Shown here: one piece after another, positions 10,571 through 61,295 of the stretch
Position numbering within the stretch: the first letter of the stretch is position 1
Layout: every line of letters starts with the position of its first letter
From: Nakamurella multipartita DSM 44233
Lineage (GTDB): Bacteria > Actinomycetota > Actinomycetes > Mycobacteriales > Nakamurellaceae
DNA length: 64,000 nucleotides
Direction of reading: 5' to 3'
Assembly (NCBI RefSeq): GCF_000024365.1
Contig: NC_013235.1
Coordinates: 2,914,001-2,978,000 of the forward strand
Made by a program: the position numbers and the translations under genes
Notes under the pieces: model-generated
Databases searched by the model: none
The model's input: the letters and a program-made list of their open reading frames with translations, nothing else
Told to the model about the DNA's origin: nothing

Positions 10571-10588
10571 GCCGGCCCTGTGTGCGGC
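10571..10588 (-). promoter_or_regulatory. Shared start motif, MoxR gene
   Basis: GCCGCACACAGGGCCGGC abuts ATG 10570. No SD is present. Confidence 0.7.
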
Positions 10589-10705
10589 CGACCTCGACGT
10601 CCCGAGGAATCGATGATGCAACGGAGCAGCGCGAGCGTGGACGACCTGCTTTGGCGGCGTGTCCGTTTCCGGTTCGGGTATTCACGCAACAACGCCGTGA
10701 AGTCA

Positions 10706-10736
10706 TTGCCGAGTCCATGGACGCATCCCGTACGAT
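10706..10736 (+). promoter_or_regulatory. Predicted leaderless promoter of lsr2
   Basis: TTGCCG (10706-10711), a 19-base spacer and TACGAT (10731-10736). The -10 hexamer ends 6 bases before the ATG, so transcription should start at the ATG itself. This is the standard TANNNT leaderless layout and gives a reference for the unusual shared motif. Confidence 0.6.
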
Positions 10737-10742
10737 GCGGAT

Positions 10743-11084
10743 ATGGCAAAGCAAACCGTCACCACCATGGTGGACGATATCGATGGTTCGACCGACGACG
10801 TGATCACCTGTGCGTTCGGGCTGGGCAATTCTCAATTCGAGATCGATCTGAACGCCGCTCACCGCGAGGAACTGGAATCGGTACTGGCCAAGTTCATCGA
10901 CGCCGCGCGCGAGGTGGGTGGCGGCCGCACCCTGCGTTCGCGCCAGACGACCAAGCGCGTCGAGCGTTCCGACCGGGAGCAGACGCAGGCGATCCGTCAG
11001 TGGGCGAAGGACAACGGGTTCGAGGTGTCCGAGCGTGGGCGCATCTCCAAGAGCGTGGTCGATGCCTTCGAGGCCGCCCACTGA
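10743..11084 (+). CDS. lsr2: Lsr2 nucleoid-associated protein
   Basis: 113-residue Lsr2 homologue. The N-terminal oligomerisation domain begins MAKQTVTTMVDDIDG. The C-terminal DNA-binding domain reads IRQWAKDNGFEVSERGRISK, where the RGR triad is the AT-hook-like minor-groove contact known for the family. Lsr2 silences AT-rich and foreign DNA in Actinobacteria; an element-borne copy may dampen the cost of carriage to the host. It is alone on the plus strand between two parts of the MoxR/VWA cassette, with its own promoter and terminator. Confidence 0.92.
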   Translation: MAKQTVTTMVDDIDGSTDDVITCAFGLGNSQFEIDLNAAHREELESVLAKFIDAAREVGGGRTLRSRQTTKRVERSDREQTQAIRQWAKDNGFEVSERGRISKSVVDAFEAAH

Positions 11085-11101
11085 TCCTCCACCACATATG
11101 C

Positions 11102-11133
11102 ACCGGCCCGGCAGTAATGCCGGGCCGGTTTCG
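11102..11133 (+). terminator. Rho-independent terminator of lsr2
   Basis: A perfect 12-base inverted repeat (ACCGGCCCGGCA / TGCCGGGCCGGT) with a GTAA loop, followed by a short T stretch, 17 bases after the lsr2 stop. Confidence 0.85.
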
Positions 11134-11264
11134 TGTCCAGGCAACAATGAACCCGTGCCGACGACAAAGGTTCACTGGCCATCGGTGCACACAGGGGCGA
11201 TCGACGGTCCGTGAAATGGTCATCGAAGTTGAGCTGAGCCGCGGGAATCACTCGGCAGCCACTG

Positions 11265-12611
11265 CTATTGGCGCTGGGTTCGCCTGGCCGTCGAGTTGAT
11301 CCGCACGGTCCGCACCCAGTTCGGTGGCTGGGTGGTGCGCTGGCCGACGATCGCTGCGATGACGGGCACCCGCGCCGGCTGGCCGGGCCAGGGGGTTTCG
11401 CCGTCGGTGAGCACGACCACCGCGCTCGGTGCCGGTCGCAGACTCAGGGCGGCGTCGATTCCGACGCGCATGTCGGTGCCACCGCGTCCACGGACCTGGC
11501 TGATCGACACCGCGCCCTGGTACTCGACCACTTCATGCACGGCCGCATCCACGTCCAGCACCCGCAGGTCGCGACCACGGATACCGAGAGCGGCGGCGAT
11601 GCCGACGATCTCGGCGGTGACCGCGGCGAGGTCGGACGCCGACATGGACCCGGAGGTGTCGCGGACCGCGGCGATCCGCGGCTGCGGCGAGTACGTGCCC
11701 GGGTAGACGACGCGTCCGGCGCCGAGCCGGACGTTGCGGCGGCGGCGGGACCGGCGGGTCCAGTCGGCGTCCGTGTTGCCGCGGCGGCAGGCGGCGGCCG
11801 CGGCCAGGTCGGCGCGGAGCACCTGCTGCCAGGGCACGGTCGGCGGGGCGAGGGTTTCGGCGGCCCGTTCGTGAAGACCCGCCGGGATGCTGCCCCGCCC
11901 TCGAATCGCGGCGTGATCGCGGATGGATGCCGCGGTGGCGATCCGCACGCGTCGCCGTTCGACCGGGCCCACCCCGGCGCCGGCCGAGTCGTCGGCTTCG
12001 GTTTCGTCGTCTCCGGGTGCGCCGGGGATCGGCCCGCCGCCGGCGCCCGGCCCGCACCCTTGATACGGCTCACCGCTGGCTGCGCCGGGTTGACCCGCCG
12101 GGGCGCCGGCCCCGCGTGGGGTCGGCGGCGATGCCGGGGTGGCGGCGTAGTAGATCTCCGCGCACCGGTGGTCGGGCTGGCCCAGCGATGCGGGAAGGAT
12201 GCCGTAGGCGGCCAGCTCGGCGCAGCCGGCGTCACGCAGGTCGTCGTTGATTTCCGCGTCGGCGGCGGTGTTCCACCGGTCGTGGTCGTTGGGCCCGACA
12301 CCGGCGTCACCGGCTCGTTCGGCATGTTCGTGGAACAGATGGCAGCACTCGTGCAGCAGCGCCTGCGCGCACATGGTGTCCGTCCACATCACCGGCTCTC
12401 CGGCCAGCGCAGCGAAGTTGACATACAGCCGCATCCGCCGGTCCACCGCGAAAGAGTCGACCCCGCTGAAGTTGCTGCACTGCAACGCGAACAGCATGGA
12501 CGCCATGTACGGCATCTGGTCCAGGGCCAGTGCCCGCCATCGGGACAGGGCGCGGTGCTGGTCCTCGGTCGGCGATACCGGTCCCCGGGTTGCCGGACGC
12601 TGGATGCTCAT
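11265..12611 (-). CDS. VWA-domain protein with zinc-peptidase-like N-terminus (DUF2201-type)
   Basis: 448 residues. The N-terminal half has HECCH (87-91, an HExxH zinc motif) and downstream WNTAADAEIND, the layout of putative metallopeptidases fused to VWA-like domains. A Gly/Pro/Ala-rich linker follows. The C-terminal half is a VWA-like domain with a MIDAS-type DTSGSM (about 318-323), a second metal-site segment RGRGGTDM and VVVLTDGETPW. It is the expected partner of the MoxR ATPase at 9452-10570. The start at 12611 abuts the shared start motif; the long in-frame extension upstream of it is out of phase with known domain starts. Confidence 0.8.
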   Translation of the reverse strand: MSIQRPATRGPVSPTEDQHRALSRWRALALDQMPYMASMLFALQCSNFSGVDSFAVDRRMRLYVNFAALAGEPVMWTDTMCAQALLHECCHLFHEHAERAGDAGVGPNDHDRWNTAADAEINDDLRDAGCAELAAYGILPASLGQPDHRCAEIYYAATPASPPTPRGAGAPAGQPGAASGEPYQGCGPGAGGGPIPGAPGDDETEADDSAGAGVGPVERRRVRIATAASIRDHAAIRGRGSIPAGLHERAAETLAPPTVPWQQVLRADLAAAAACRRGNTDADWTRRSRRRRNVRLGAGRVVYPGTYSPQPRIAAVRDTSGSMSASDLAAVTAEIVGIAAALGIRGRDLRVLDVDAAVHEVVEYQGAVSISQVRGRGGTDMRVGIDAALSLRPAPSAVVVLTDGETPWPGQPARVPVIAAIVGQRTTQPPNWVRTVRINSTARRTQRQ

Positions 12612-12629
12612 GCCTGGCTCGTGTGCGGC
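12612..12629 (-). promoter_or_regulatory. Shared start motif, VWA gene
   Basis: GCCGCACACGAGCCAGGC abuts ATG 12611. Confidence 0.7.
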
Positions 12630-12631
12630 GG

Positions 12632-13792
12632 TCACGCGCCGGCCAGCAGCACGTCCAGGGGTACGTCGCGGGTCACCCGACGCTCGGTGGGCACCCGGCC
12701 CGCGCTCCACCGCGGGCCGAAGTAGGCCTTCGACGCCGATCGCAGGTAGGGCTTGGCCGACAGCAGAGCCGTACCGCCGTTCGCGGCCAGCCCGGCCAGC
12801 AGGGCAACACCAGACGTGTCCACGGTGTTCGCGCGGCGGCGGTCGGTCTGCTCGACCGGTTCGACCTGCGCGTGCAGGTCGCCGTCGATCATCCGGTAGC
12901 CGGCCAGACGAGCGAAGCCGTGCCTGAACCGGTCGTCGTCGGGCTGGATGTCGGTGATCAGCAGGTCGTCGTCGACCCGGAGTCGGGCCTGACCGGTGAC
13001 CCGGACCAGGGCCGGGTCGTCCCGGCGCGGCCGCCCGGCCGAGCACAGCCCGGTGAGAAGGTTCCGTTCGGTCAGCAGCGGATCAAGCCGCTGCATGGCC
13101 GTCCAGGCGTCGTCGGCCGCTTCCGCAGCCGCCAGTTGGGTTGCCTGGAAGGCCATCCCGCCCCACTCCGCGGCCTTCATGACCGCGCGTTCGGAGGTCG
13201 TAATGAAGCTCAGCGGCGACGAGCGGCCGATGGTCCGGCTCGTGCCGTCGAGCAGGACCGCGGCCAGCGCGGTGAAGAAGGGGAGAGGGTCACGGGCGTC
13301 AGGGGCGGGCAGGTTCAACGCGGACGCCCACGGTTTGACCGGCGCACCCGCCAATGAGGTCGGTGCCCAGTACTTCTCGTGGATCAGTTCGGGGATGACG
13401 ACGAGGCGGGCGGTGCGTTCGGCGCGGATCAGGTGGGTGAATCGGCGGCGCATCGCGGCCACCGGGTCCGGACGCTGGTCGGTGGCGGGGATCCGGTTGG
13501 CGATCGTCGACGCCTTGGTCACGACGGTCCGGTTCACCGCCCACACCGTCGTCTCCTCGGTTCCGCCGAGAATGGTCATGGCGTCGGCGTCGTTGAATGG
13601 TCGCGGGATCCCGGCGGCCGGGCCGGCGGTGTCCATCAGATGGGGAACGCCGTTGCGGGCGAACAGGAACGTTCCGGGCGTCGCGCCAGCGACCGGTTGG
13701 CTCATCCGCGGGATCGGCGCGCCCTTCTCGTCGGCGCGCTCGCGCATCGCCGAGTCGTACTCGGTCACGGTTCGGGCGGGTGCTGCGGGCAT
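12632..13792 (-). CDS. Unknown protein upstream of the VWA gene
   Basis: 386 residues starting MPAAPARTVTEYDSAMRER. No catalytic motif or family was recognised. It is mixed alpha/beta in character, without membrane segments or signal peptide. The stop lies 20 bases before the VWA gene start, inside that gene's motif, so the two are closely linked. It also carries its own motif copy and faces the helicase gene back to back. Its constant position beside MoxR/VWA/rII genes could be tested in other genomes to see whether it is a core component. Confidence 0.6.
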   Translation of the reverse strand: MPAAPARTVTEYDSAMRERADEKGAPIPRMSQPVAGATPGTFLFARNGVPHLMDTAGPAAGIPRPFNDADAMTILGGTEETTVWAVNRTVVTKASTIANRIPATDQRPDPVAAMRRRFTHLIRAERTARLVVIPELIHEKYWAPTSLAGAPVKPWASALNLPAPDARDPLPFFTALAAVLLDGTSRTIGRSSPLSFITTSERAVMKAAEWGGMAFQATQLAAAEAADDAWTAMQRLDPLLTERNLLTGLCSAGRPRRDDPALVRVTGQARLRVDDDLLITDIQPDDDRFRHGFARLAGYRMIDGDLHAQVEPVEQTDRRRANTVDTSGVALLAGLAANGGTALLSAKPYLRSASKAYFGPRWSAGRVPTERRVTRDVPLDVLLAGA

Positions 13793-13810
13793 GCCCACCT
13801 CGTGTGCGGC
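13793..13810 (-). promoter_or_regulatory. Shared start motif, 386-residue protein gene
   Basis: GCCGCACACGAGGTGGGC abuts ATG 13792. It faces the copy at 13859 on the opposite strand, 48 bases away. Confidence 0.7.
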
Positions 13811-13858
13811 GCGTCTGGGGTGCCCGCGCCCCGCCGTCGAGCGGATGGGGTGGGCATG

Positions 13859-13876
13859 GCCGCACACGAGGTCGGC
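13859..13876 (+). promoter_or_regulatory. Shared start motif, helicase gene
   Basis: GCCGCACACGAGGTCGGC abuts ATG 13877 and differs at one base from the facing copy at 13793-13810. Confidence 0.7.
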
Positions 13877-15202
13877 ATGCTCAAGCGCACCGATGCTCCG
13901 ACGTCGGATGACCCGTCGCGGTCGCCGACCTCCCAACCCGCGCGAACCGGATCGACCAGTCGCGGACTGATCCCCGGGTCGACGACGGCGAAGGCGCTGT
14001 ATCAGGTGTGGTCCGGCACGCCGGTGACGGTCGTGAAGTCGCCGCCCGGCGCCGGCAAGACCGCGCTGGTGGTCGACGTCGTCCGGCAGCTGCTGACCCG
14101 CGCCGCCCTCACCGTGTACGTCGTTGCGCCCAACAACAATCAGGTGGCCGCCCTGGCCGCTCGCCTCGCGGACGCCCTGCCCGCGGATTCGGTGCTGGTG
14201 CTGGCGAAGAAGATCAAGCCCGAGGAGGTGCCGGCCGCCGTCTTCGCGGGTGACTCGGAGCGAGCCAGACACCTCGCGGCCGCCCACGTCACCGTGTGCA
14301 CGATCGCCCGGGCGATGGTCCAGCCGCCGCAGTGCGACGTGATGGTCGTCGACGAGTCCTACCAGTCCACGCACCAGCAGGTGCGGTCGGCGATGGCCAA
14401 GGCAGATCAGGTGCTGCTGGTGGGCGATCCCGGGCAGATCGGGCCGGTCGTCACGGTCCGCACGGATCTGTACACGGGGCCGACCGCGCCGCACCTGCGG
14501 GCACCGGACGTCTTCGACCGGCACCCGGATGCCGTCGTGTTGACTCTGCCGCACACCTACCGATTCGGCGCGGACACCGCGCAGGCGTTGGCGCCGCTGT
14601 ATGACTTCGGTTTCGGCAGCGCCCGGCCGCCGCGGAGCATCATCGGCCTGCCCGAACTCGCCTCGATCCGAGTCGACGGCGTGGAGGAAGGGAACACCGA
14701 CGAGGATCTGTTGCAGGCGGTGGTCCGCCGGGCGGTCGGCCTGGTCGGTCGGGTCGCGGACGTCGACGGCGAGCTCCTCCCGGTCACCGACGGGGACGTC
14801 GCCGTGGTCGCCTCGCACAACGCGCAGGTCGCGTTGCTGCGCGGCATGTTGGCCGAGCAGGGCCATCCCGACCTGTTGGTCGGCACCGCCGACAAGCTGC
14901 AGGGCGGCCAGTGGGAGGCGGTCGTCGCCGTCGACCCGCTCGCCGGGGGTGTGCAGGGCAGCCATGCCACCAGCCTGGGGCGCCTATGTGTCATGGCCAG
15001 CCGGCACAAGTCGCACCTGATGTGGGTGCACGACGGCCGCTGGGACCGGGCGGTCGGCGTCGACGCCAGTCTGTCCGCCGCCGATCGCCTTCGAGCGCGT
15101 GAGGTCCGCCAGCGACTGACCGAACCGTCCCCGGCAGCCCACCTGCCGGGTCACGGCGACCGGGATCCGGCGGCGGCCGAGTCGAACTGGAGCACACGAT
15201 GA
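13877..15202 (+). CDS. Superfamily 1 helicase-like ATPase
   Basis: 441 residues. Motif I is SPPGAGKT (about 55-62), motif II VVDES, motif III-like GDPGQIGP, followed by TYRFG and near the end GTADKLQGGQW and VMASRHKSHL. This order matches the Upf1/Dna2-like branch of SF1 helicases. It should act on nucleic acid with ATP hydrolysis, perhaps in element replication or repair. The stop overlaps the start of the next gene by four bases (ATGA), so both are likely translated together. The start is fixed by the shared motif. Confidence 0.75.
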   Translation: MLKRTDAPTSDDPSRSPTSQPARTGSTSRGLIPGSTTAKALYQVWSGTPVTVVKSPPGAGKTALVVDVVRQLLTRAALTVYVVAPNNNQVAALAARLADALPADSVLVLAKKIKPEEVPAAVFAGDSERARHLAAAHVTVCTIARAMVQPPQCDVMVVDESYQSTHQQVRSAMAKADQVLLVGDPGQIGPVVTVRTDLYTGPTAPHLRAPDVFDRHPDAVVLTLPHTYRFGADTAQALAPLYDFGFGSARPPRSIIGLPELASIRVDGVEEGNTDEDLLQAVVRRAVGLVGRVADVDGELLPVTDGDVAVVASHNAQVALLRGMLAEQGHPDLLVGTADKLQGGQWEAVVAVDPLAGGVQGSHATSLGRLCVMASRHKSHLMWVHDGRWDRAVGVDASLSAADRLRAREVRQRLTEPSPAAHLPGHGDRDPAAAESNWSTR

Positions 15203-15609
15203 GCAACGACGACCCGGCGGTCACCCGGGTGATGATCGTGCCGGCCGGCGGCGAATGGCTGTGGTCACCGATGCCGTTGGACGATGCGGCCGGGGCGATC
15301 ACCGCGGCCGTCGGACACGACTACCGTGCCTTGGCGCTGACCGACCAGCTGACCGTGCTCGTGGGCGAACGCGACGATCCCGGGATCGACGTCAACCCGT
15401 ACCTGCCCGCGATCGGGCGCCTGTACGGCCGTCCGCTCACCGGACGGGGATCTGCGGTGTTCACCGGCGGCCTGGTGCGGGTCGGGCAGGACCTTCGGGT
15501 CATGCCGCTGTCCGCGGCGCACTGCCGCCGGCTCGTCGACGTCGTCGATGCGACCCAGTCGCGAATGCTGGCGATCAGGCCGCGGCGGATCGATCATCCG
15601 GCGGGCTGA
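15199..15609 (+). CDS. Small soluble protein coupled to the helicase gene
   Basis: 136 residues, MSNDDPAVTRVMIVPAGGEW. The sequence GIDVNPYLPAIGRLYGRPLT followed by GRGSAVFTGG vaguely resembles the DUF3846 type of small phage and plasmid proteins; this is a weak call. It overlaps the helicase stop by four bases and ends convergently with the small minus-strand gene at 15594. Confidence 0.5.
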   Translation: MSNDDPAVTRVMIVPAGGEWLWSPMPLDDAAGAITAAVGHDYRALALTDQLTVLVGERDDPGIDVNPYLPAIGRLYGRPLTGRGSAVFTGGLVRVGQDLRVMPLSAAHCRRLVDVVDATQSRMLAIRPRRIDHPAG

Positions 15610-15773
15610 TCCGTGTCCGCCGGTGGCCGTCCGGTGATCGGCGGGACGTCCGGATCGTCGACCGCTTTCACCTGCCAGGGCGGCGAGAGCTGTTCGGCGT
15701 AGCCGGCGGCGGCCTCACGGGTTTCGAAGGCGACTCGACGATGCCGGCTGTCCGGGTGCATGGCGATCCACAT
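15594..15773 (-). CDS. Small 59-residue protein
   Basis: MWIAMHPDSRHRRVAFETRE, a short alpha/beta-looking protein with a Pro-rich end. Start 15773 is preferred over 15821 because a motif-like sequence abuts it. It overlaps the convergent gene by 16 bases. Function unknown. Confidence 0.45.
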   Translation of the reverse strand: MWIAMHPDSRHRRVAFETREAAAGYAEQLSPPWQVKAVDDPDVPPITGRPPADTDQPAG

Positions 15774-15791
15774 GCCGGTGATGGTCGCACC
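15774..15791 (-). promoter_or_regulatory. Weak copy of shared start motif
   Basis: GGTGCGACCATCACCGGC abuts ATG 15773. It keeps GCGAC and CCGGC at the expected spacing but the centre differs. Confidence 0.4.
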
Positions 15792-15833
15792 CGCCCCCGA
15801 CAGTGCGGGTGCGACCATCACGACTGCGCCCGA

Positions 15834-17822: not shown

Positions 17823-17840
17823 ACCGGGTCCATGCGCGGG
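17823..17840 (-). promoter_or_regulatory. Shared start motif, tagged 662-residue protein
   Basis: CCCGCGCATGGACCCGGT abuts ATG 17822. Confidence 0.7.
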
Positions 17841-17872
17841 ACCCCGGTGCGCCGATGCGGCTGCCAGGACGG

Positions 17873-18566: not shown

Positions 18567-18584
18567 GCCGCGCACACTGACGGC
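18567..18584 (+). promoter_or_regulatory. Shared start motif, 52-residue basic protein
   Basis: GCCGCGCACACTGACGGC abuts ATG 18585. Confidence 0.65.
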
Positions 18585-22799: not shown

Positions 22800-22817
22800 A
22801 CCCGGATCAGTCGCCAA
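22800..22817 (-). promoter_or_regulatory. Shared start motif, FtsK-like gene
   Basis: TTGGCGACTGATCCGGGT abuts ATG 22799. It belongs to the GCGACTGAT sub-type. Confidence 0.7.
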
Positions 22818-24312: not shown

Positions 24313-24330
24313 GTCTCGGTCATGCGCGGC
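24313..24330 (-). promoter_or_regulatory. Shared start motif, 236-residue protein
   Basis: GCCGCGCATGACCGAGAC abuts ATG 24312. Confidence 0.7.
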
Positions 24331-26037: not shown

Positions 26038-26055
26038 GTCCGATTCATGCGCGGT
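26038..26055 (-). promoter_or_regulatory. Shared start motif, 106-residue protein
   Basis: ACCGCGCATGAATCGGAC abuts ATG 26037. Confidence 0.7.
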
Positions 26056-31511: not shown

Positions 31512-31530
31512 GCCCAGGATCAGTCGCAAC
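31512..31530 (-). promoter_or_regulatory. Shared start motif, NERD gene
   Basis: GTTGCGACTGATCCTGGGC abuts ATG 31511, one base longer than the other copies. Confidence 0.65.
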
Positions 31531-31570: not shown

Positions 31571-31708
31571 CTACAGGAACATCGCGATCACGACGCCGGC
31601 GCCGATCAGCACCAACGCGACCGCCACCACGACGGCACCTACACCGGACAGCCAGTCGGTGATGTCGTCACGGGCGCGCTCCCGGGCGGAGGGGTCGTCG
31701 CGGTCCAT
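31571..31708 (-). CDS. Small single-span membrane protein
   Basis: 45 residues: a charged N-terminus (MDRDDPSARERARDDITDWL) followed by one transmembrane helix (GAVVVAVALVLIGAGVVIAM). The motif abuts its start. The size and charge recall small accessory proteins of transfer complexes, but no family is assigned. Confidence 0.6.
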   Translation of the reverse strand: MDRDDPSARERARDDITDWLSGVGAVVVAVALVLIGAGVVIAMFL

Positions 31709-31726
31709 GCCGGGATCAGTCGCCAA
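31709..31726 (-). promoter_or_regulatory. Shared start motif, 45-residue membrane protein
   Basis: TTGGCGACTGATCCCGGC abuts ATG 31708. Confidence 0.7.
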
Positions 31727-32732: not shown

Positions 32733-33751
32733 GACGATCCTCCGCTGGTGCGGGTGCCGGTGGAGTTGCCCACCGCACGCTGGCGGCCGCGGGACGCGTC
32801 CACCCGGGCGACCCAGGCCAGCGAATCGGCGGCGGTCTGCTGGGTGATCGGGTGCTGCGCCACAACCTGCTCCCAAGCGGCCGTGCGCCGGCCAGGATCA
32901 GCGATGTCGTCAAGCAACAGGTCCTTCAGCCGCGACTCCCGTTGCGCCAGATCGTCCCGGGCGCGCTCATGCTCGACCCGGACACGGCCGATCTGCCCCT
33001 GCAGGGACCGAACTCGAAGCCGGTCGCCCGCGGCCTGTGCATCCGTGAGGTACTGCTCCAACCGGGCAAGACCGTCACGGCCAGCCGTCACGGCCACCCG
33101 GGAACCAAGCACGCTGTCCAGGACCATCGCCGGATGCTGGTCGATCCCATTGTCCAGCACCGTGACGTCGCGGCTGAAGCCGCGGTCGGTCCGGTACACC
33201 GACACGCTCACCGACGTCGCGCCGCCCAGCCCCCGCGCGCCGGGCGGACTGGTCAGCCTCGCGTCAGCCGGAGCAGCGACCTTGCCGATGAGGAAGCCCT
33301 TCGCGGCATTGTTGGCCCGACGCCGCTCCGGATCCGAATGCTTCGACGGATTGAACCATCCCGCCGCCCGCCCGTTCGGATCGTCGTCGCCCAGCAGCAT
33401 CCACGACCGCCCGTACCGGGTGTCCACGAGCTTGGCCGCCACCAGATTCCCGTCCGTGTCGAACAGCGCCGGGAACGACGACGTTCCGCCGGCGTCGACG
33501 ATCCGGGCCTTCGTGCGGTGCAGGTCCGCGGTCAACCCGCTCGCCCACTGCGACAGGAACCCGTCCGTGTCGCACCGCTCGAACGACTGGGCGGCCGACT
33601 GGGCTGATTCGTTGGCCCTCTGCCGGTGGTCCTCGGCGGAAAGACCGACAACCGCGGCCCGCTCGAGAGTGATCATCGCTGGCGCCTGGCCCGGTGACGT
33701 GAACTGGCCGCCGGTGGTTACGCCGGCCGGGACGCGGACTTGATGGCTCAT
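32729..33751 (-). CDS. Tagged protein, 340 residues, with coiled coil
   Basis: Starts MSHQVRVPAGVTTGGQFTSP, the clearest example of the shared tag. The middle is alpha/beta (GRSWMLLGDDDPNGRAAGWF). Near residues 230-290 lies a helical, charged coiled-coil-like stretch (LQGQIGRVRVEHERARDDLA). It is translationally coupled to the next tagged protein, so the two may act together. The start is set by the shared motif. Confidence 0.6.
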   Translation of the reverse strand: MSHQVRVPAGVTTGGQFTSPGQAPAMITLERAAVVGLSAEDHRQRANESAQSAAQSFERCDTDGFLSQWASGLTADLHRTKARIVDAGGTSSFPALFDTDGNLVAAKLVDTRYGRSWMLLGDDDPNGRAAGWFNPSKHSDPERRRANNAAKGFLIGKVAAPADARLTSPPGARGLGGATSVSVSVYRTDRGFSRDVTVLDNGIDQHPAMVLDSVLGSRVAVTAGRDGLARLEQYLTDAQAAGDRLRVRSLQGQIGRVRVEHERARDDLAQRESRLKDLLLDDIADPGRRTAAWEQVVAQHPITQQTAADSLAWVARVDASRGRQRAVGNSTGTRTSGGSS

Positions 33752-33769
33752 GCCCAGCTCATGCGCGGC
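33752..33769 (-). promoter_or_regulatory. Shared start motif, tagged 340-residue protein
   Basis: GCCGCGCATGAGCTGGGC abuts ATG 33751; it is close to the consensus. Confidence 0.75.
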
Positions 33770-37218: not shown

Positions 37219-37236
37219 GCCGGGATCCTGCGCGGC
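37219..37236 (-). promoter_or_regulatory. Shared start motif, truncated frame
   Basis: GCCGCGCAGGATCCCGGC abuts ATG 37218. Confidence 0.65.
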
Positions 37237-41110: not shown

Positions 41111-41129
41111 GCGCGGGATCAGTCGCAAA
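41111..41129 (-). promoter_or_regulatory. Shared start motif, VirD4-like gene
   Basis: TTTGCGACTGATCCCGCGC abuts ATG 41110, one base longer than the usual copy. Confidence 0.65.
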
Positions 41130-48145: not shown

Positions 48146-48163
48146 ACCGGGTCTATGCCGGCC
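48146..48163 (-). promoter_or_regulatory. Shared start motif, CpaE-like gene
   Basis: GGCCGGCATAGACCCGGT abuts ATG 48145. Confidence 0.65.
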
Positions 48164-53625: not shown

Positions 53626-53642
53626 AGTTACTCTCCGGTGTG

Positions 53643-53700
53643 CGGCTCGCGGGCCTCCGCGGTAGGGAGCCTGTGACCGTCGGGGTGAGTTCGCGAGCCG
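53643..53700 (+). repeat. Hairpin element, copy 2
   Basis: 9-base stem CGGCTCGCG / CGCGAGCCG encloses the identical 20-base loop string (53665-53684), followed by ATCCTAT. The stems differ from copy 1 but still pair, as expected of a conserved structure. Confidence 0.6.
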
Positions 53701-53995: not shown

Positions 53996-54133
53996 ATGAG
54001 CGGCTCCAAACGCCCGGTCACGAGTGGGTCCGACCCGGGCTGGCCGACCTTCTCGTCGGCGATCGCGCAGGCTCAGCAGCTGCGCCGTCTGGACGGCCGA
54101 GGCTTCTCCGCTAGGTCGGTGTACCGCCGCTGA
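53996..54133 (+). CDS. Small protein before the replication gene
   Basis: 45 residues, MSGSKRPVTSGSDPGWPTFS, ending LDGRGFSARSVYRR. Polar and basic. Its stop lies in the left arm of a 13-base inverted repeat, which supports a real transcription unit with its own terminator. Function unknown. Confidence 0.4.
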   Translation: MSGSKRPVTSGSDPGWPTFSSAIAQAQQLRRLDGRGFSARSVYRR

Positions 54134-54167
54134 CCTGCGGTTCCAACGGATCGTCGCAGGTCAGCGG
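54127..54167 (+). terminator. 13-base stem hairpin
   Basis: CCGCTGACCTGCG / CGCAGGTCAGCGG with a 15-base loop. Perfect pairing, no T-run. Likely a terminator for the small gene or part of an origin structure. Confidence 0.5.
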
Positions 54168-54238
54168 CCTTCGCTCGCGCGCACGTGCGCGACGTGGTCT
54201 CTATGGGAGGTGGGGACAGTGTGTGTGTCCGCCCCTTT

Positions 54239-54296
54239 CTTCTCTTCTCTTTCTCTTTCTCTTTCAATAAAGAAATAGATACATACATACATACAG
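54239..54296. other. AT-rich tract with pyrimidine run and tetranucleotide repeats
   Basis: A pure pyrimidine stretch of repeated CTTT/CTTC units, then an A-rich patch and ATACATACATACATAC. Strikingly AT-rich inside very GC-rich DNA. Candidate DNA-unwinding part of a replication origin. Confidence 0.5.
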
Positions 54297-54465
54297 AAGG
54301 GGTCGGAGAAGGTCGTGAGCTGCGACAACAAGTCGGAACCGGCCTGTAAGCCTCGTACAGCACAGCCGACGTGCGCCGCGGCGGCCGTCAACCGAGACCT
54401 CGGCACGGGCCGATCACCCCGCCCCCCTGGTCCGACGACGGCACGTCGGTCACCGGTCGGCTGGC

Positions 54466-54484
54466 CCATGGCATAGGAATCGGT
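54466..54484 (+). promoter_or_regulatory. Shared start motif (variant), replication gene
   Basis: GGCATAGGAATCGGT precedes GTG 54485; similar to the CATAGG variant at 61278. Confidence 0.45.
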
Positions 54485-57400
54485 GTGACCGACATTCCCA
54501 CCGCGCACCACGCCGGCCCGACGACGCCCGGCGACCCCGGAACGGACCCGGTCGGCTCCTGGGAGCTGGACGTCTACCGGCAGGTCGTCGCCGGACCGGG
54601 CGCGGCCAAACTGCAGGACTCCCGGGTGGCGCCGCTGGTCGCCGCCGCTCGCGGCTACTGGCACGCCGACCAGGCCGCCGAGAAGGTCTGCGCCGACCTG
54701 GCCGGGGTGAACTTCCGCGGCCGCACCGGCGAACAGCTGCGGGCCGCGCTGCGCATGGGCTCGATGGTGATGCCCCGGTACCTGCCCGCGTCGGGCCGGG
54801 TCTGGGAGTCATCGAGTGACGGGTCGGATGGGCGGCTCCGCCCGTTCCTGATCGAACTGAAGCCGGCCCACCCGCGGACCGAGACCGACCGTGCCTCCGG
54901 CAAGGTCCGGGTGATCAAGTACGAGACCCTGCGGCCGACCGGGTCCACTGCCGGCTCCATCATCGACGTGCACCCGGCCACCCCACGCGACTGGGACGAC
55001 GCGCCGGTCGCGCTCATCACCGAAGGAACCCTCAAGGGTGATGCCGCCCTCACCGCCCTGCTGCTGGCCGCCGGGATCACCCGCGACGACCTGTCGTTCC
55101 CCGCCTCGATGCCGCCGACCCAGCGGCAGGCGCTGGCCCGGCTGCGGGAACTGATGGACCGGGTGCCCGCGGACCGTCGCACCCTGATCCTGACCGTCAC
55201 CGGGATCGCCAACTGGCACCACAACCCGGAATGGGCCGAGGTGAACCTGCGGGACAAGCGGGTCTGGCTCACGCCGGACGGCGACGTGCACCGCAACCCG
55301 CAGGTGTGGGACCAGGCCGACCAGGCGTGGACCTACCTGTCCAGCCGACGCCGCGCCCAGGTCAAGCTACTGGACCTGGGCGCGGCAACCGCGCCCGCCG
55401 CCCTGTCCGACGACGACAGCGCCAACATCGCCGTCACGCCCGAGGAAGAACCTGACGACACCGACGACGACGTTCCCGAACCCGACGGTCCGGCCGCCGG
55501 GCCGAAAGGGCTGGACGACTACCTCGGCCAGGCCGGCGGCTGGGATACCCTCCCGCCGTTGCTGCGGCAGCAACTGCCGCCCCGACCGCGCGGCAAACGT
55601 CGACCCACCGGCACCCTCGAGGTCGACGAGAAGCGTTGCGTCGTCAAGGAATGGCACGACTCCGACACGCGCAGCGGCAAACCCGCGGGCTGGCGGGTTA
55701 ACAGCCACATCGCCGGCCGCGTCGTCGCCGTCAACGACCAGCGCAACGCCTCCGCCCTGGAGATCCGCACCGGACTGATCGACCAGAGCGCCGAGGCCGA
55801 AAGTTCCGTGCGGGCAACCGTCGTCATCGAGGTCTACTGGATCGACCAGGACGGCGACCGGGTCAGCCATCGGATCACCGGTCCCGACTCCCTGCTGGTC
55901 GACAACCCGGCCTCCTGGCACACCGAACGCGTCGGCGGAAACGTCCCCAGCGCTGTCAAGGCCCACCCATCCTGGCCGTGCGACATGAAATGGCTGGCCG
56001 CGATCAAGGCCCACCGCCCCCGCGAGACGACCCGCCAGTCCCGGTGGGGACACATGGGCTGGGTGCCCACCGACGACGGCCACCCGGTGTTCCTGGTCGG
56101 CGCCCAGGTGATCGGCGCCGACGGGCTCATGCCGGCCAAGGCCACCCCCGGCGTCAGCCCCGACATCCTGGCCAAGGCCAACCTGTTCGGCGTCATCGAA
56201 CCCGCCGACGACGAGCACCTGCGGACCGCGCTGCGCAACGTCGTGCACGCCTACGACCGGGTCTGGACCAACCCCCGGTACACTGCGATCGCGCTGGCCA
56301 CCGCGCTCCGCCCCATCGTCCCGCTGCCGTACAACACCCCGGTGATGTGCACAGGGGCGTCGGGCAAGGGCAAGAGTCACATGGCCAGCCTGATCATGAG
56401 TTTCTGGCAGCACGCCCCCGGCACCTGGAAGCCGTCGCTGCTGCCCGGGTCGATGCTCGACACGATGGCCAGCACGCAGTACTCGCTGTCTCGAACCCCG
56501 ATCTGGGTGGTCGACGACCTCGCCCCTTCCTCCGACGATCGGCGGGCCAAGTCCAACGAGGCGCTGATGGAGGACCTGCTGCGCGCGGTGCACAACCAGG
56601 CCAACCGGGCCCGCATGATGATGACCGCCACCGACATGACCCAGCGCCGCGAACAACCACCCAGGGCCGTCATCGTCGGCACCGCCGAGAACGAGGTGTC
56701 CACTAACTCCGCCGCCAACCGGGCCGTCAACCTGACCTTCCAGGCCGGGTCGCTGCTCGGAAATGAGGTGGATGCCGCCGACGAGATCCGCGACGACACC
56801 GGCGAGGCCGCCATGGTGACCTTCGGCGCGATCCGCGCCATGGCCCGCGTCGCCGGCGACAACTGGGAACTCGCCGCCGGACTCTGGCAGACCCGCAAGG
56901 ACGACCTGATGCGCGACGGCGTCGAACGGCTCGGCGCCGAGGGCAGCGCCCGCCGGCAGATGGACATGGCCGCCGACCTGGCCATCGGCCTGCTACCCCT
57001 GGGCTACCTGGCGCAGATGCTCGGGCTCGAAGAGATCCACCGACGGGTCGACGGCTGGATCGACGACATCTTCGACCACGTCTTCGCCGAGACCCTGCGG
57101 ATCCACCAGAACACCCCGGGCCGGGCCCTGCTCGCCGCGGTCCGCGCCGCACTGCGCGCCGGAGCCGCCTACATCGAAGCCCGCGACACCCCCACCCAGC
57201 CGCCCCTGCAGGAAGGCAAGGGGACCGTGTCCGCGACCATGCTCGGCTGGCAGGCCGCCGGAGACGGAGCCCTCCGACCCGGCGGCACCCGCATCGGCAG
57301 CCTCGTCGCCAAGAACGACCACCTGTACGTCCTGCTCGACCCGGCCAACGCGTTCAAGATCGCCCAACGCCACCAACCCGACCTGATCCCCTACGGCTCC

Positions 57401-57601
57401 CGGCAAAACACCTCTTGGGCCGCCGTCTGGGCCGAAGGGCTCACCTGCCCCGACGGCGACCCGTGGAAGCGCCATCAGGTTGGTCAGCATCTGCGACCGG
57501 TCGTCCGGGCCTACGGCCTTGAAGCAGTGCCGTTCCCTCTTGATCAGATCGTGGGTGGCGAAGTCGGTCTGGAGCGATTGGGGGATCGCCAACCAAACTA
57601 A
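54485..57601 (+). CDS. Large replication protein: Toprim-like plus helicase-like ATPase
   Basis: 1038 residues. A Toprim-like (DUF3854-type) segment ALITEGTLKGDAALTALLLA sits near 176-195. The second half is a DUF927-like ATPase with Walker A TGASGKGKS near 621-629 and a Walker-B-like WVVDDLAPS. It should act as primase-helicase for plasmid or element replication. GTG 54485 abuts a motif variant; longer in-frame starts are disfavoured by composition. It lies next to the hairpins and AT-rich tract, a plausible origin. Confidence 0.75.
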   Translation: MTDIPTAHHAGPTTPGDPGTDPVGSWELDVYRQVVAGPGAAKLQDSRVAPLVAAARGYWHADQAAEKVCADLAGVNFRGRTGEQLRAALRMGSMVMPRYLPASGRVWESSSDGSDGRLRPFLIELKPAHPRTETDRASGKVRVIKYETLRPTGSTAGSIIDVHPATPRDWDDAPVALITEGTLKGDAALTALLLAAGITRDDLSFPASMPPTQRQALARLRELMDRVPADRRTLILTVTGIANWHHNPEWAEVNLRDKRVWLTPDGDVHRNPQVWDQADQAWTYLSSRRRAQVKLLDLGAATAPAALSDDDSANIAVTPEEEPDDTDDDVPEPDGPAAGPKGLDDYLGQAGGWDTLPPLLRQQLPPRPRGKRRPTGTLEVDEKRCVVKEWHDSDTRSGKPAGWRVNSHIAGRVVAVNDQRNASALEIRTGLIDQSAEAESSVRATVVIEVYWIDQDGDRVSHRITGPDSLLVDNPASWHTERVGGNVPSAVKAHPSWPCDMKWLAAIKAHRPRETTRQSRWGHMGWVPTDDGHPVFLVGAQVIGADGLMPAKATPGVSPDILAKANLFGVIEPADDEHLRTALRNVVHAYDRVWTNPRYTAIALATALRPIVPLPYNTPVMCTGASGKGKSHMASLIMSFWQHAPGTWKPSLLPGSMLDTMASTQYSLSRTPIWVVDDLAPSSDDRRAKSNEALMEDLLRAVHNQANRARMMMTATDMTQRREQPPRAVIVGTAENEVSTNSAANRAVNLTFQAGSLLGNEVDAADEIRDDTGEAAMVTFGAIRAMARVAGDNWELAAGLWQTRKDDLMRDGVERLGAEGSARRQMDMAADLAIGLLPLGYLAQMLGLEEIHRRVDGWIDDIFDHVFAETLRIHQNTPGRALLAAVRAALRAGAAYIEARDTPTQPPLQEGKGTVSATMLGWQAAGDGALRPGGTRIGSLVAKNDHLYVLLDPANAFKIAQRHQPDLIPYGSRQNTSWAAVWAEGLTCPDGDPWKRHQVGQHLRPVVRAYGLEAVPFPLDQIVGGEVGLERLGDRQPN

Positions 57602-57767
57602 CTAGTATGCGTATGGACACTCACACTGCGCGTGGCGGTCTAACCATCGCGGGTCACCCACGGATATGGTATCGCTTGAGGAGCGCATTCGTCTCCAACC
57701 CAGAAAATGCACTCTCGAAGAGCGGATGTCTTGGACCTTGATTCGCTCTGAGCCTGTCAAGCACTTC

Positions 57768-58784
57768 TTAGAGAAGTATGCGGCTCTTGCGTCCCCAGTT
57801 CCGAACCTCGTCGCGGATTGAATCGTAATTTTCCACGACGTCTGTCAGCGTAGGGGAACTCGCAGAATCGATCCCGGCCGCAACAAGCTCTTCGATCTCT
57901 CCTGGGCTCAGCGTAACGGCTGCGTATGCTTGCAGCAGGATTCGAAGCTCTGCGCCACGGTTGCTGCTTTTTTCGCTCGTTTCGGGCCATGACCATGGTG
58001 CTGATGAGCGCCATTTTGCCGGCAATAGCGATATCGTGCGAATCTGGTCTACGGATTCATCCAGCTGATCACTTTGCGCCAGCCACCAAACGTCCTCAAT
58101 CGCGTCCGGAGATTGGTGATCATGATCTATGAGCGAACCGGTCTCAAGGATGGTTGCTATCCAGAGTTGAGCGTCAACGATCGCCTGCCTCCAAGTGATA
58201 TCGCTTGCAAAGAAAATCATGCTCGCTTGGTTCAGTAGAGGCTGGCGGACGTCGTCTATAGAATCCTGTACTATTGTATAGAAGGGAAGATCTGGCTTTG
58301 CCCTGGCGTAAATCACCGGGTAATCATCATCGGAACTCTGCGTCATGATCCTCGCAAAGTCGCGCCTAAACGACTCGGTTGGCGATTTGCGGCCCGACGA
58401 TGGCACTGTTGCAATGTTGAGCCCCACTAGGGTTTGTGTCGCCGATGGAATCGAAGCCTCAATCCAAGCCCTCTGAAACGGCAGGTCGGCCAATGGTCGT
58501 CCCCATGATTGGTGATAATCGGGAATGGAGGCGTAAAGCTCAAGTGCTCGGGCGGCTAATCCATAGGACATCGCATTTAGTTCAAAGAATCTAAGAGAGG
58601 CTCCCGTATCTAGCCAAGTCAACAGCTCGCGCATGTAGACTGCCAATGCCTGCTCGAGTTCTTGATCGGTGCGGTCTCGAAGGTGTCGCAATGACTCGAT
58701 ACGCTCTGTGATCGGTTCTACGATGTCGGCGCAAAACGCGTGGGAAGCCATCTCGGCTGCGCCGCGGGCGGGTTCGTTCCTCAC
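57768..58784 (-). CDS. Unknown partner of the hydrolase gene
   Basis: 338 residues, largely helical (LRHLRDRTDQELEQALAVYM, then DVVENYDSIRDEVRNW). No membrane helix or known motif. GTG 58784 overlaps the hydrolase stop (GTGA), so the pair is co-translated. GC is clearly lower than in the backbone, indicating acquired cargo. It might be an immunity or sensor protein for the hydrolase, but this is only inferred from pairing. Confidence 0.55.
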   Translation of the reverse strand: MRNEPARGAAEMASHAFCADIVEPITERIESLRHLRDRTDQELEQALAVYMRELLTWLDTGASLRFFELNAMSYGLAARALELYASIPDYHQSWGRPLADLPFQRAWIEASIPSATQTLVGLNIATVPSSGRKSPTESFRRDFARIMTQSSDDDYPVIYARAKPDLPFYTIVQDSIDDVRQPLLNQASMIFFASDITWRQAIVDAQLWIATILETGSLIDHDHQSPDAIEDVWWLAQSDQLDESVDQIRTISLLPAKWRSSAPWSWPETSEKSSNRGAELRILLQAYAAVTLSPGEIEELVAAGIDSASSPTLTDVVENYDSIRDEVRNWGRKSRILL

Positions 58785-59659
58785 GCTTGGTGCACCCTAT
58801 CTCGCTCGACCCTAATCCTGGCTACATTAGCTTCAACCATGTACCAGGGTGCCCAGTATGACTGATTCGGCTTGCAGACCGAGGAGTGGCTTCTGCCATC
58901 CTGTGAGTCATGCTGTGTGTCATGCCAGTACGTGTCGTAATTGACCACATCGTCAGGATTCGCAAAAAGGACTGTTGGCCTGAGGGCCTGAAGACCTTCG
59001 TTACCAAACTCGTCGAGCAAGGTCCTGGTTCTAGTCCTGATTGAGTTCAGTGTCGCAGAGTTCACTGCCAGTTCAAGGTAGGCAGGCGCCATGTTCAATC
59101 GCAACTCGGCGAATCTCAAGAGTCCAAGCTCTCGCGCAAGCGCGACTTTGCCGGAAGGGCGGAATCCGCCAGTGGCAGGGCTGAACAGGAATACGCGTGC
59201 TGAAAGTACATCCGGAGGCGGGCTTTCCGCACCTGAATGCGGTTTGTGCCAGTTTTCAGCGATATATAGCAGTGCGCACCGAACCACAAGGCCACCCAGG
59301 GAGTGGCCCACGATGACCAACTCCTTATAAGGCATTTCGATATGAGGTCGGATTGGTGAGTTGTCAAGAAAAAGAGGGCCGGTCGGCGGGTGTGGGTAGA
59401 AGTCAAAGAGTAGCTGACGTAGTCGATTCGACGTAGCCGCGACGCTGTCGCTAAGGGAACTGTAGCCGAAAAATAGCATATCTGACTTGCGCCACCAGTC
59501 ACTTACTCCGCCGCCAGCGTCGAATTGTCTCCACGTCTTTACCGATTTGCCCATGAAGCCGTGAACGAATATGACAAGCCGATCAGGTGGCTGGTGAGAA
59601 ACGTAGAGCCAGGACTCCCGCCTAAATGTCGGTATTCTTCGCGCAGTGTGCCAATCCAT
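58781..59659 (-). CDS. Alpha/beta hydrolase (lipase-like)
   Basis: 292 residues. RLVIFVHGFMGKSVKTW gives the oxyanion-hole HG motif, LVIVGHSLGGLVVRCAL the nucleophile elbow GHSLGG, and later acidic and His residues (FANPDDVV, a His-rich WHDTQHD) may complete the triad. No signal peptide is seen, so the enzyme probably acts inside the cell. Lipase-like effectors occur in toxin and abortive-infection systems; the low GC and coupled partner suggest that type of cargo. Confidence 0.7.
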   Translation of the reverse strand: MDWHTARRIPTFRRESWLYVSHQPPDRLVIFVHGFMGKSVKTWRQFDAGGGVSDWWRKSDMLFFGYSSLSDSVAATSNRLRQLLFDFYPHPPTGPLFLDNSPIRPHIEMPYKELVIVGHSLGGLVVRCALLYIAENWHKPHSGAESPPPDVLSARVFLFSPATGGFRPSGKVALARELGLLRFAELRLNMAPAYLELAVNSATLNSIRTRTRTLLDEFGNEGLQALRPTVLFANPDDVVNYDTYWHDTQHDSQDGRSHSSVCKPNQSYWAPWYMVEANVARIRVERDRVHQA

Positions 59660-60292
59660 GAGTACTCTCTCAGCCTTCCTGCCCTGGGGCTCCGATACTA
59701 TCTCCTATACTACTTTCCAGACGGTCCGCGCGTAGTCCGTGCAGTATCCGTGACTTCCGTTGGGGATCCGTTCCAGACGTCTGGGGAGTGGCGAGCAAAC
59801 CTCGCCGTGGGTAATAGCCGCGTACTTGATTCTGTGCGTGACGGTGTCTCCTACCTGCGGATGATGACCGGCTGCGCTATCCTGGGGAGCTTGCCCTTGC
59901 CCCGTTCCTCAACCGGCGCAGATGCTGACTCCAATTGTCCTTGCTGTTTCAGCGATCGATGCTCTCGTGCTTGCGCCACTCGCGCAGCGAGAAGTGACCC
60001 GTAGTCTTGCGGGAATGCCCTGCCGCGGCGCCTGCGTTGTTGAACTCGTCTCCATGGCTGCCCCTCCCCGGTGACTCCGAGTATCGGGTCAATCGATGAG
60101 CCGCGCCACCGGGCGCTTCCGTGCGCGGTCCAACTTGACGATCTTGCCGCCCGTGTCTTGCCGTGAAGTACGTACGGGGACGGATCCTCGGCTACTTGAG
60201 TCGGTCGCGCCGGTCCGGCTCGACAATCAGCGACGATCAGGCTCACCATCCGAGACGGACGGTCGCCGCGTCTCCAGCCGTGTCGGGTCTGG
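59660..60292. other. Gap without a convincing gene
   Basis: About 630 bases. Frames on both strands (for example 59525-60004 plus, 59851-60312 minus) lack start signals and motifs. One CTGTTTCAG palindrome occurs near 59942. It may contain the hydrolase-pair promoter on its left side. Confidence 0.4.
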
Positions 60293-60310
60293 GCCGCGCA
60301 TGTGCCGGGC
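60293..60310 (+). promoter_or_regulatory. Shared start motif, tagged 303-residue protein
   Basis: GCCGCGCATGTGCCGGGC abuts ATG 60311. Confidence 0.75.
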
Positions 60311-61222
60311 ATGAACCAGAATCGTGTGCCTGCCGGTGTCCGGTCCGGCGGCCAGTTCGCTGCCGACGAGCGGACGGTGCCGGCCCTCAGCCTCGGCGTC
60401 GCCCATGACGACGCGACTGATCCGCACCCTGATGGCGAGAGCGGCGCCTCCGAGATCCGCCGCGAGTTCGGGTCAGACGGGCAACTGCTCGGCGAGACGA
60501 ACCTGGTGCTCGGCGTGGCCGCGGATTGGCCGGACGGAACTCCGGCGGCGGTGAGGTATCACCCCGACGGATCGATCGAGTCCTGGCGGCGAGCGGACGC
60601 GTCCGAGCGGACGTACTTCCCGCCAGGTGGGGCGCTGAGTCATGTCGACCCGCGGGACGGCAGTCATGTCGTGACTGCCGGCGACGATGGCGGAAGGTGG
60701 ATCCGCCGTGGTGTCGTCGCGCGTCGCGAGTCGTGGGTGGTTCCGCCGGTCGGGCCGAACGGCACGTGGCAGGCGAACGTGCCGCGCTTCGAGGAGTTGC
60801 GGGATGGACCCGGGGGTGAGCCGGCGGTCAGCTACGTGCGTCCCGATGGCTCGGTCAGCTCGGCCACCCGGTACGCCGGTGGGGGATGGACGCATACGGT
60901 CGACTACTTCCCGGACGGGCAGGTCGCTGTCGTGTTCAGCAACTCCGAGAACCCGGTCGTGCGTGGTTTTCCGGCCAGGGACCCGGTCTGGAAGGACATC
61001 GGTATGGACGGCGAGCAGTGGCAGGGCATCCAGCCGAACGATGCCCTGCACTTCGCGGACGCCGGTGTCACACCCGAAGAAGCACAAACCTGGTCGCGTG
61101 ACCGCACCGGCATGGACGCTCCGACCGCCCTGAAATGGCGTCGACAGGGGTACTCGCCCGATCGCGCCGCCGCGGAAATGGCCGCGCGTCGGGCCAGCAG
61201 CGGTCGGGTGAGCCGAAGCTGA
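60311..61222 (+). CDS. Tagged protein with repeat-like beta domain
   Basis: 303 residues, MNQNRVPAGVRSGGQFAADE, the shared tag. The middle has repeated beta units of the form RYHPDGSIESWRRA, YVRPDGSVSSATRY, YFPDGQVAV, similar to DG-containing antitoxin-like or RHS-type strand repeats. The C-terminus is helical (GVTPEEAQTWSRDRTG, then GYSPDRAAAEMA). The start is fixed by the motif. Confidence 0.6.
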   Translation: MNQNRVPAGVRSGGQFAADERTVPALSLGVAHDDATDPHPDGESGASEIRREFGSDGQLLGETNLVLGVAADWPDGTPAAVRYHPDGSIESWRRADASERTYFPPGGALSHVDPRDGSHVVTAGDDGGRWIRRGVVARRESWVVPPVGPNGTWQANVPRFEELRDGPGGEPAVSYVRPDGSVSSATRYAGGGWTHTVDYFPDGQVAVVFSNSENPVVRGFPARDPVWKDIGMDGEQWQGIQPNDALHFADAGVTPEEAQTWSRDRTGMDAPTALKWRRQGYSPDRAAAEMAARRASSGRVSRS

Positions 61223-61277
61223 TCGCCCAGCGGCGTCCGGAGTCGCGCCCATGCCCCCGGCGAACCGACGCCGGCCG

Positions 61278-61295
61278 AGGCGGCATAGGACGGGC
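61278..61295 (+). promoter_or_regulatory. Shared start motif, RecB-like gene
   Basis: AGGCGGCATAGGACGGGC abuts ATG 61296. Confidence 0.65.

Follow-up and report, generated by a model that had tools for sequence, protein, structure and literature searches.

We analysed a stretch of 64,000 nucleotides (hereafter the window, always at its full length) from the single chromosome of Nakamurella multipartita DSM 44233, which has 6,060,298 bases. The window, from 2,914,001 to 2,978,000, sits inside an integrated element of about 120 kb. Short sequence blocks are locked to start codons in this element. These start-locked blocks are real and element-specific, and they are very probably promoters. The sequences strongly support their being private leaderless promoters of a single family of mobile elements. 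Overall, the best explanation is probably that of private leaderless promoters with an element-coded sigma factor as the reader of the blocks that we call class A. The position, register, specificity, conservation and architecture of the blocks are observed directly; the actual transcription starts and the identity of the reader are inferred.

Start-locked blocks in the integrated element

The initial annotation of the window had described one 18-base sequence that ends at start codons. Its three quoted examples lie where it placed them and each ends exactly at an ATG. Its consensus is also enriched: 16 window matches with at most 3 mismatches, against 4.4 expected, a number that none of 100 shuffles reaches. 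One sequence is too simple a description, since at least three sequence classes are start-locked. Class A is GCCGC(G/A)CA(T/C)GA..C..GG(C/T) at -18..-1 and ends at ATG or GTG. Class C reads TTG(G)CGACTGATCC.GG(C/T) and has a single variant end. In class B, GCATAG(A/G), the C stands at -12 or -13. There are 19 sites in the window (12 of class A, 4 of class C and 3 of class B), 18 of them within 10571..61295. They are listed below with their score in the class A position weight matrix, together with one class A block away from a start codon and the lsr2 gene.

853..870, plus strand: class A block before GTG 871 of a recombinase-like gene of 307 aa (PF07508, E=4.6e-8); score 17.2
10571..10588, minus strand: class A block before ATG 10570 of a MoxR-like AAA ATPase gene (AAA_5); score 14.4
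12612..12629, minus strand: class A block before ATG 12611 of a DUF2201/VWA gene of 448 aa (Pfam); score 20.7
13793..13810, minus strand: class A block before ATG 13792, in frame with the open reading frame (ORF) 12632-14965 and likely its true start (386 aa); score 18.2
13859..13876, plus strand: class A block before ATG 13877 of a 441-codon ORF, divergent from 13792; score 22.1
17823..17840, minus strand: class A block before ATG 17822 of a 662-aa gene whose Glaciihabitans ortholog also has class A; score 16.2
18567..18584, plus strand: class A block before ATG 18585, 52 codons; score 16.1
22800..22817, minus strand: class C block TTGGCGACTGATCCGGGT before ATG 22799 of an FtsK-like gene of 563 aa; the Glaciihabitans ortholog has its own class C form, the pACHL01 ortholog none
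24313..24330, minus strand: class A block before ATG 24312, 236 aa; score 17.8
26038..26055, minus strand: class A block before ATG 26037, 106 aa; score 18.9
31512..31529, minus strand: class C block before ATG 31511 of a NERD-domain gene; both plasmid orthologs have none at their own start
31709..31726, minus strand: class C block TTGGCGACTGATCCCGGC before ATG 31708 of a 45-aa ORF ahead of the NERD and FtsK/HerA genes
33752..33769, minus strand: class A block before ATG 33751, 340 aa with an N-terminal VPAGVTTGG-type tag; score 25.5
37219..37236, minus strand: class A block before ATG 37218 of a 29-codon ORF; score 17.0
41111..41128, minus strand: class C block before ATG 41110, 827 aa, matching a pACHL01 protein annotated as type IV secretory system conjugative DNA transfer family protein
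48146..48163, minus strand: class B block GGCATAGACCCGGT before ATG 48145, 572 aa
54467..54484, plus strand: class B block before GTG 54485 of a 1038-aa gene, class B also on pACHL01
60293..60310, plus strand: class A block before ATG 60311, 303 aa with a VPAGVRSGGQ-type tag; score 19.5
61278..61295, plus strand: class B block before ATG 61296 of a PD-(D/E)XK nuclease gene, class B also on pACHL01 and pPA-B-2242
62965..62982, plus strand: class A block whose +1 (G, 62983) opens no start codon, 85 nt upstream of a gene at 63068 led by a Shine-Dalgarno (SD) site; score 19.1
10743..11084, plus strand: lsr2 (Lsr2 Pfam), included for comparison: its TACGAT at -12..-7 is an ordinary leaderless-type -10 that shares the register of the blocks

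The class A matrix, iterated over ATG/GTG positions, finds 24 sites in about 124 kb, with scores of 14.4-25.5. The next ATG/GTG scores 8.9, and the best of 13,164 such positions in the host control 11.1; left out of the matrix one at a time, the 24 sites score 11.3-23.9. Because the matrix was seeded with the earlier consensus and with start-adjacent positions, we also scanned all positions without demanding a start codon. At scores of at least 12, this start-blind scan gives 38 matches between 2,907,900 and 3,033,400, of which 24 are at a start codon, against none of 9 in a 98.5 kb flank and none of 15 in 240 kb of host DNA. The weight-matrix comparison of element and host proposed in the initial annotation thus bears out the locking, and the block is more frequent at starts than at other positions, as expected of a leaderless promoter in fixed register. 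The exact pattern GCCGCRCAYGANNNNGRYATG has 10 copies genome-wide, 9 of them in the element, and none when reversed; each of the other 393 genomes of the taxonomic class that we searched has at most 2. Twelve class A sites lie beyond the window, 11 rightward and one leftward (2,907,955, about 1 kb outside the leftmost attachment, or att, repeat). In the DNA compared, start-locked class A copies are specific to the element, and they continue past the window.

The other two classes are smaller. Class B has its C at that distance from a start in 6 of its 9 element copies: in the window before 48145 (minus), 54485 (plus) and 61296 (plus), and past it before 3,014,986, 3,009,773 and 2,995,978 (all minus), the last heading 14 codons only. 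The same string has 7 copies in the host control, none with a start codon in range; in the flank, one of four copies has one. Class C has four sites, before 22799, 31511, 31708 and 41110 (all minus). In Nakamurella some sites fit the regular expressions of both A and C, and these were assigned to A. The second form named in the initial annotation, GCGACTGATCC, fared unevenly: four of its five exact copies are start-locked (the fifth, at 60413, is not), and in number it shows no excess, with 44 copies at up to 2 mismatches against 38 in shuffles. Counting mismatched copies of this consensus was accordingly dropped, and we give meaning to the exact start-locked copies only.

The blocks tend to mark the first gene of a transcription unit. 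Of the 24 called genes that carry a class (A in 16, B in 4, C in 4), 1 starts within 20 nt of an upstream gene on the same strand, against 24 of 83 others (Fisher p = 0.012), a count that omits 8 class A sites not called as gene starts or without a comparable neighbour. The claim that genes inside operons lack the motif is hence right as a tendency and not as a rule. SD sites are also rarer in genes with a class (4/24) than in the others (35/83).

Architecture and conservation on related megaplasmids

The relatives of the element are megaplasmids of 149-608 kb from Arthrobacter-type, Curtobacterium and Glaciihabitans hosts, with FtsK/HerA and PD-(D/E)XK proteins at about 29-37% identity. At E <= 1e-3, 41 of the 109 called element genes have a match on the Glaciihabitans plasmid or on pACHL01 (350 of its 427 kb). 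With pACHL01 the element also shares DnaE, SSB, NERD, VirD4-like and CpaF-like genes. Start-locked classes are present at annotated starts in all six plasmid records examined. On pACHL01 the block is GCCGCACACA, exactly at -18 from annotated starts, and occurs at 97 of 20,867 start positions against 80 of 671,645 others. On the Glaciihabitans plasmid it is GCC(G/A)CACAC at -19. Four further plasmids carry class A and B forms, and two of these class C as well. The small ORF placed as that at 31708 (minus) recurs on pACHL01 and the Glaciihabitans plasmid, with their class C form. When both members of an ortholog pair have a class, it is the same class in 13 of 14 pairs, the exception being a Glaciihabitans nuclease gene; this count omits one Curtobacterium pair whose start is 342 nt off, and in the comparison matches starting after query residue 140 were discarded and start codons with the motif were preferred by the script. 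Outside these plasmids, the pACHL01-type pattern CCGCACACATN7ATG occurs in 34 of the 394 genomes of the taxonomic class, with at most 3 copies each, and none of these resembles a pACHL01-type carrier.

The blocks have a partner upstream. On pACHL01, 91 class A sites (T at -8) are start-locked, and 72 of them have a -35 box, cGGnGA at -38..-33, at fixed spacing. In these 72 sites, G stands at -37 in 94% and A at -33 in 88%, CCGCACACAT occupies -17..-8, and GG(G/T/A)(G/A)A at -37 is exact in 38. The remaining 19 lack the box and are akin to the Nakamurella form. In Nakamurella itself, GG is found at -33/-32 in 15 of 24 class A sites, against 0-7 at other positions. The two-box layout of a sigma-dependent promoter, with a -35 element at fixed spacing, is thus strong on pACHL01 and weak in Nakamurella.

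Some blocks have no start codon at +1. A pACHL01 matrix stripped of its start-proximal columns, in a scan pre-filtered for ACAC at -13..-10, finds 139 sites, of which 79 have a start codon at +1. The other 60 have a purine at +1 in 46 cases and a start codon at +2 in at least 7 of the 45 listed, and 38 of them are followed within 130 nt by an SD-led open start, against 1,064 of 3,000 random positions. Among the 14 non-start matches of the Nakamurella element, the top three (19.1-21.7), at 2,976,983, 2,978,317 and 2,992,893, precede SD-led genes by 85, 98 and 41 nt respectively; one (18.8) is inside a gene and the others score at most 15.5. The class A copy of dnaE has a GTG at +1, then an SD site, with the dnaE start 47 nt on. 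At window 62322 on the plus strand, a class A block scoring 18.8 lies within the PD-(D/E)XK nuclease gene with no start at +1, which may be chance or an internal promoter.

We read the blocks as most likely promoters, and neither as ribosome signals nor as operators, because +1 is mostly a purine and short SD leaders appear where the start codon is missing. Being kept at leadered genes with an SD site downstream, the block behaves as a promoter would, unlike a ribosome signal. Transcription would then start at the first base after the block, mostly the A or G of the start codon, and give leaderless messages. The block at -18 to -8 would replace the -10 region, yet it is GC-rich; in class A, its A at -11 would correspond to the second base of a TAnnnT beginning at -12. 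At some genes the same promoter would be followed by a short leader and an SD site. A, B and C would be separate promoter sets with largely conserved gene membership. The leaderless promoter for an unusual sigma factor suggested by the initial annotation is therefore supported as far as the promoter goes (fixed +1 register, -35 box, leadered genes, no start-locked copy in the host sample), and leads to a candidate for the sigma.

Candidate readers of the blocks and rival explanations

We find it rather likely that class A is read with an element-coded factor, and an element-coded sigma, not the host housekeeping sigma, would be its most likely reader. A search of the element for such factors, also proposed in the initial annotation, does find sigma-type proteins. 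One is P0001 (L035:103-684), its one clear ECF-type sigma, near the dnaE and Tad genes. The other is a sigma-like protein of 327-348 aa with a sigma-region-2-like stretch (here L034:3435-4418, minus strand), present also in eight plasmid records (pACHL01 and seven more) and two draft genomes. That this second protein is the element-coded factor falls just short of being probable. In 7 of 9 carriers examined (Nakamurella, pACHL01, pPA-B-2242, the A. caoxuetaonis plasmid, Curtobacterium D40 and both draft genomes), a class A block heads the gene of this protein itself, and the pS16 gene has the near form GCCGCATAC. Against NCBIfam, seven aligned members matched 12 families, 10 of which are sigma factors, the two commonest in four of the seven members; the best E was 6e-5 and families with cut-offs shown all scored below them. 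An hhalign comparison of the family with ten sigma-region-2 proteins (nine of the host and P0001) gave a probability of 85% and E 5.9e-6 over 48 columns. Pfam sigma region 2 matched the pACHL01 member at E 0.004, below the cut-off, and did not match the Nakamurella member. PDB searches with the protein gave no significant match, SigW topping the profile search at E 0.14. In a blind co-occurrence test, three of the 394 genomes carry the family: N. multipartita, G416 and G345. In 40 kb at the G416 locus, CCGCGCATA has 12 copies, with a purine at +1 in all 12 and ATG or GTG in 6, and the G416 genome has FtsK/HerA relatives. The link of this family to the motif is thus suggestive. A viral origin was considered and rejected, as no relative of the sigma-like family was found among viral contigs; the string CCGCACACATN6CATG occurs in 84 viral-contig stretches, once each, which we take as background.

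A number of observations weigh against an element-coded sigma reading conserved private promoters. In the sigma-like protein, region 2 alone is recognisable, below curated cut-offs; a Pfam scan of two members found no sigma region 4 at E up to 10; a single-sequence structure model failed (pLDDT 41.9) and was not used; and the Nakamurella and pACHL01 members are only 27% identical. The G416 sigma-like gene has no class A block at its start. G345 carries a distant family member, and the 40 kb around it show no motif, so that co-occurrence scored one of two; FtsK/HerA relatives at E <= 1e-10 are absent from the G345 genome. Class A and C sites occur on the Glaciihabitans plasmid, class A lying 1 bp further from the start, and neither a sigma-region-2 match nor a member of the sigma-like family was found there; the reader on this plasmid must be another or a host factor. 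The Nakamurella -35 is GG only, at a distance unlike that on pACHL01, and leadered genes explain only 3 of the 14 element non-start matches. Among ortholog pairs outside the 13/14 count, six have a class in Nakamurella only and nine on the plasmid only.

Some of this would suit a host reader, in which host RNA polymerase and one of the host's sigma factors, possibly aided by an activator from the element, would act at these leaderless promoters; we judge this unlikely. Of the 27 Sigma70_r2 matches in the genome, 26 are outside the element, and on the Glaciihabitans plasmid the motif is present with no sigma of its own found. The register is that of ordinary actinobacterial leaderless promoters, as at lsr2, whose TACGAT, pointed out in the initial annotation, is indeed seen in the upstream sequence. 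Called host genes without SD have TAnnnT from -12 in 4 of 111 cases, against about 0.3 per other position. Class A is built otherwise than the housekeeping SigA-type TAnnnT at -12..-7: all 24 sites carry C rather than T at -12 and A at -11, and only 3 of the 24 have T at -7. Further, the 240-kb host control is without a start-locked copy and hence shows no visible host regulon in this sample, and the motif recurs with the plasmids across three named host families.

Less likely again is another element-coded sigma as the reader of class A: the ECF sigma here, and a helicase-sigma70-HA fusion on the Arthrobacter-type plasmids. P0001 is the one clear sigma-region-2 gene of the Nakamurella element, near dnaE/Tad, and the corresponding dnaE-Tad stretch of pACHL01 is occupied by the fusion (L088:22250-25222), a 990-aa protein with a DEAD/ResIII helicase, sigma-70 regions 2, 3 and 4, and an HA domain. 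Relatives of its sigma part are on at least four other Arthrobacter-type megaplasmids among the matches listed, and matches above the family cut-off number two on the plasmid of BIM B-2242, two on that of A. caoxuetaonis, and two and one on those of two Curtobacterium strains. The ECF sigma and the fusion are unlike each other. Neither protein was found in every carrier, and P0001 has no tblastn match at E <= 1 on 350 kb of pACHL01 or on the Glaciihabitans plasmid. P0001 was dropped as a universal reader since it is not shared among carriers. Region 2.4 of the fusion by eye resembles what we take to be the housekeeping pattern, which presumably predicts a TATAAT-like -10 and speaks against the fusion.

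A shared operator over the start, an element repressor's site at each transcription unit, was also raised in the initial annotation and is very improbable. Many like copies at gene starts would fit it, and dispersed stoperators act in transcription control in cluster A phages, according to PMC3203893. The block is asymmetric, points downstream at start-locked sites and keeps a fixed distance to +1 and, on pACHL01, to -35. A repressor could bind at the block in addition to its being a promoter. More improbable still is a signal for translation initiation on the messenger, like the role proposed for the start-associated sequences (SAS) of cluster K mycobacteriophages, which, according to the same paper, are likewise start-linked, mostly one-directional and element-specific: our block does abut start codons and is element-specific. 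Against this reading, it also occurs where no start codon follows, upstream of an SD site, and its consensus contains no SD; nor would one expect an RNA signal to have a -35 box at a fixed distance upstream. Pairing with 16S rRNA (GCCGCA and TGATCC against the complement of what we take to be its 3' region) was dropped by reasoning, as it misplaces the start codon and leaves class B and the -35 box unexplained.

With private promoters and an element-coded sigma as our preferred reading, a broader picture is possible, and held more tentatively than the assignment of the sigma-like protein. It would be a private transcription system in which a diverged, element-specific sigma family serves dozens to more than 100 class A promoters per element and yields leaderless messages, with two further start-locked classes (C at transfer genes, B at nuclease- and helicase-type genes). 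The system would have persisted in at least three host families as its boxes drifted. If so, a promoter signature would serve to recognise this whole megaplasmid family and to correct its gene starts. More than 100 natural promoters on one plasmid would come with a candidate cognate factor. One could also test how mobile elements separate their genes from host control, and why Actinobacteria favour leaderless expression.

The element and its place among known systems

The element runs from about 2,908,943 (or 2,915,857) to 3,033,419, i.e. past the window. Its tyrosine integrase (3,031,984-3,033,345) adjoins tRNA-Leu(gag) at 3,033,421-3,033,504, and direct repeats of the tRNA 3' end stand at 2,908,943, 2,915,857 and 3,033,419, with a fourth, at one mismatch, at 2,787,048. 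Integrase, tRNA and repeats together make this an integrative element beside tRNA-Leu. Two plus-strand genes, 2907955-2908920 and window 871-1794, have class A starts and similar first codons; they stop just short of the repeats at 2,908,943 and 2,915,857, and the second matches the Recombinase family. Such a pair, each ahead of an att repeat, suggests nested or tandem integration. Between 3009161 and 3027778 the element carries its own DNA polymerase III alpha, SSB, a LysM protein and Tad/T2SS-type pilus genes, in an order near that of pACHL01. Megablast of the first 25 kb of the window gave no match, i.e. no near-identical plasmids. Back-translation found no FtsK/HerA protein relatives in genome contigs, and at E <= 1e-20, among 150 relatives, FtsK/HerA was found in the N. 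multipartita genome alone.

Two further features concern the proteins. The class A starts at 13792 (minus, 386 aa) and 13877 (plus, 441 codons) are divergent and 85 bp apart, and the long minus-strand ORF 12632-14965 probably conceals two back-to-back genes. Dozens of otherwise unlike pACHL01 (NC_011879) proteins share an N-terminal tag, RVPxGxPTGGQFA. Tags of this type are on several element proteins too, including those starting at 33751 (minus) and 60311 (plus) and the sigma-like protein. A profile of the sigma-like family has 49 matches on pACHL01, all limited to the N-terminal part except the full-length one. The tag may direct the transfer or secretion of proteins that accompany conjugation.

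Our searches, confined to the open-licence literature, turned up no description of these promoters. Element- or phage-coded sigma factors and polymerases with their own promoter classes exist, and the blocks resemble such systems in forming private promoter classes across one replicon. They differ in having a candidate reader only and in their carriers, conjugation-type megaplasmids and an integrated element. The megaplasmids (pACHL01, pPA-B-2242 and those of A. caoxuetaonis, Curtobacterium and Glaciihabitans) are separate circular records, whereas the related set in Nakamurella is integrated at tRNA-Leu with a tyrosine integrase.

Mycobacterial and other actinobacterial leaderless promoters, according to PMC3898074, have a TAnnnT -10 and no conserved -35 motif. 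The blocks are like them in a predicted transcription start at the start codon, a -10-like block in the same register and a preference for a purine at +1. They are unlike them in being GC-rich and class-specific, in lacking TAnnnT, in the -35 of class A, in their restriction to one mobile-element family and in falling into three classes. According to PMC3203893, the cluster K SAS typically stand 3-7 bp ahead of the start, include AGGAG and have a proposed translational role. SAS (at non-structural genes) and our blocks are both short asymmetric repeats at gene starts, found in one element family and largely conserved by gene family. In contrast to SAS, the blocks described here touch the start codon, are without SD, have a -35 partner and serve leadered genes too.

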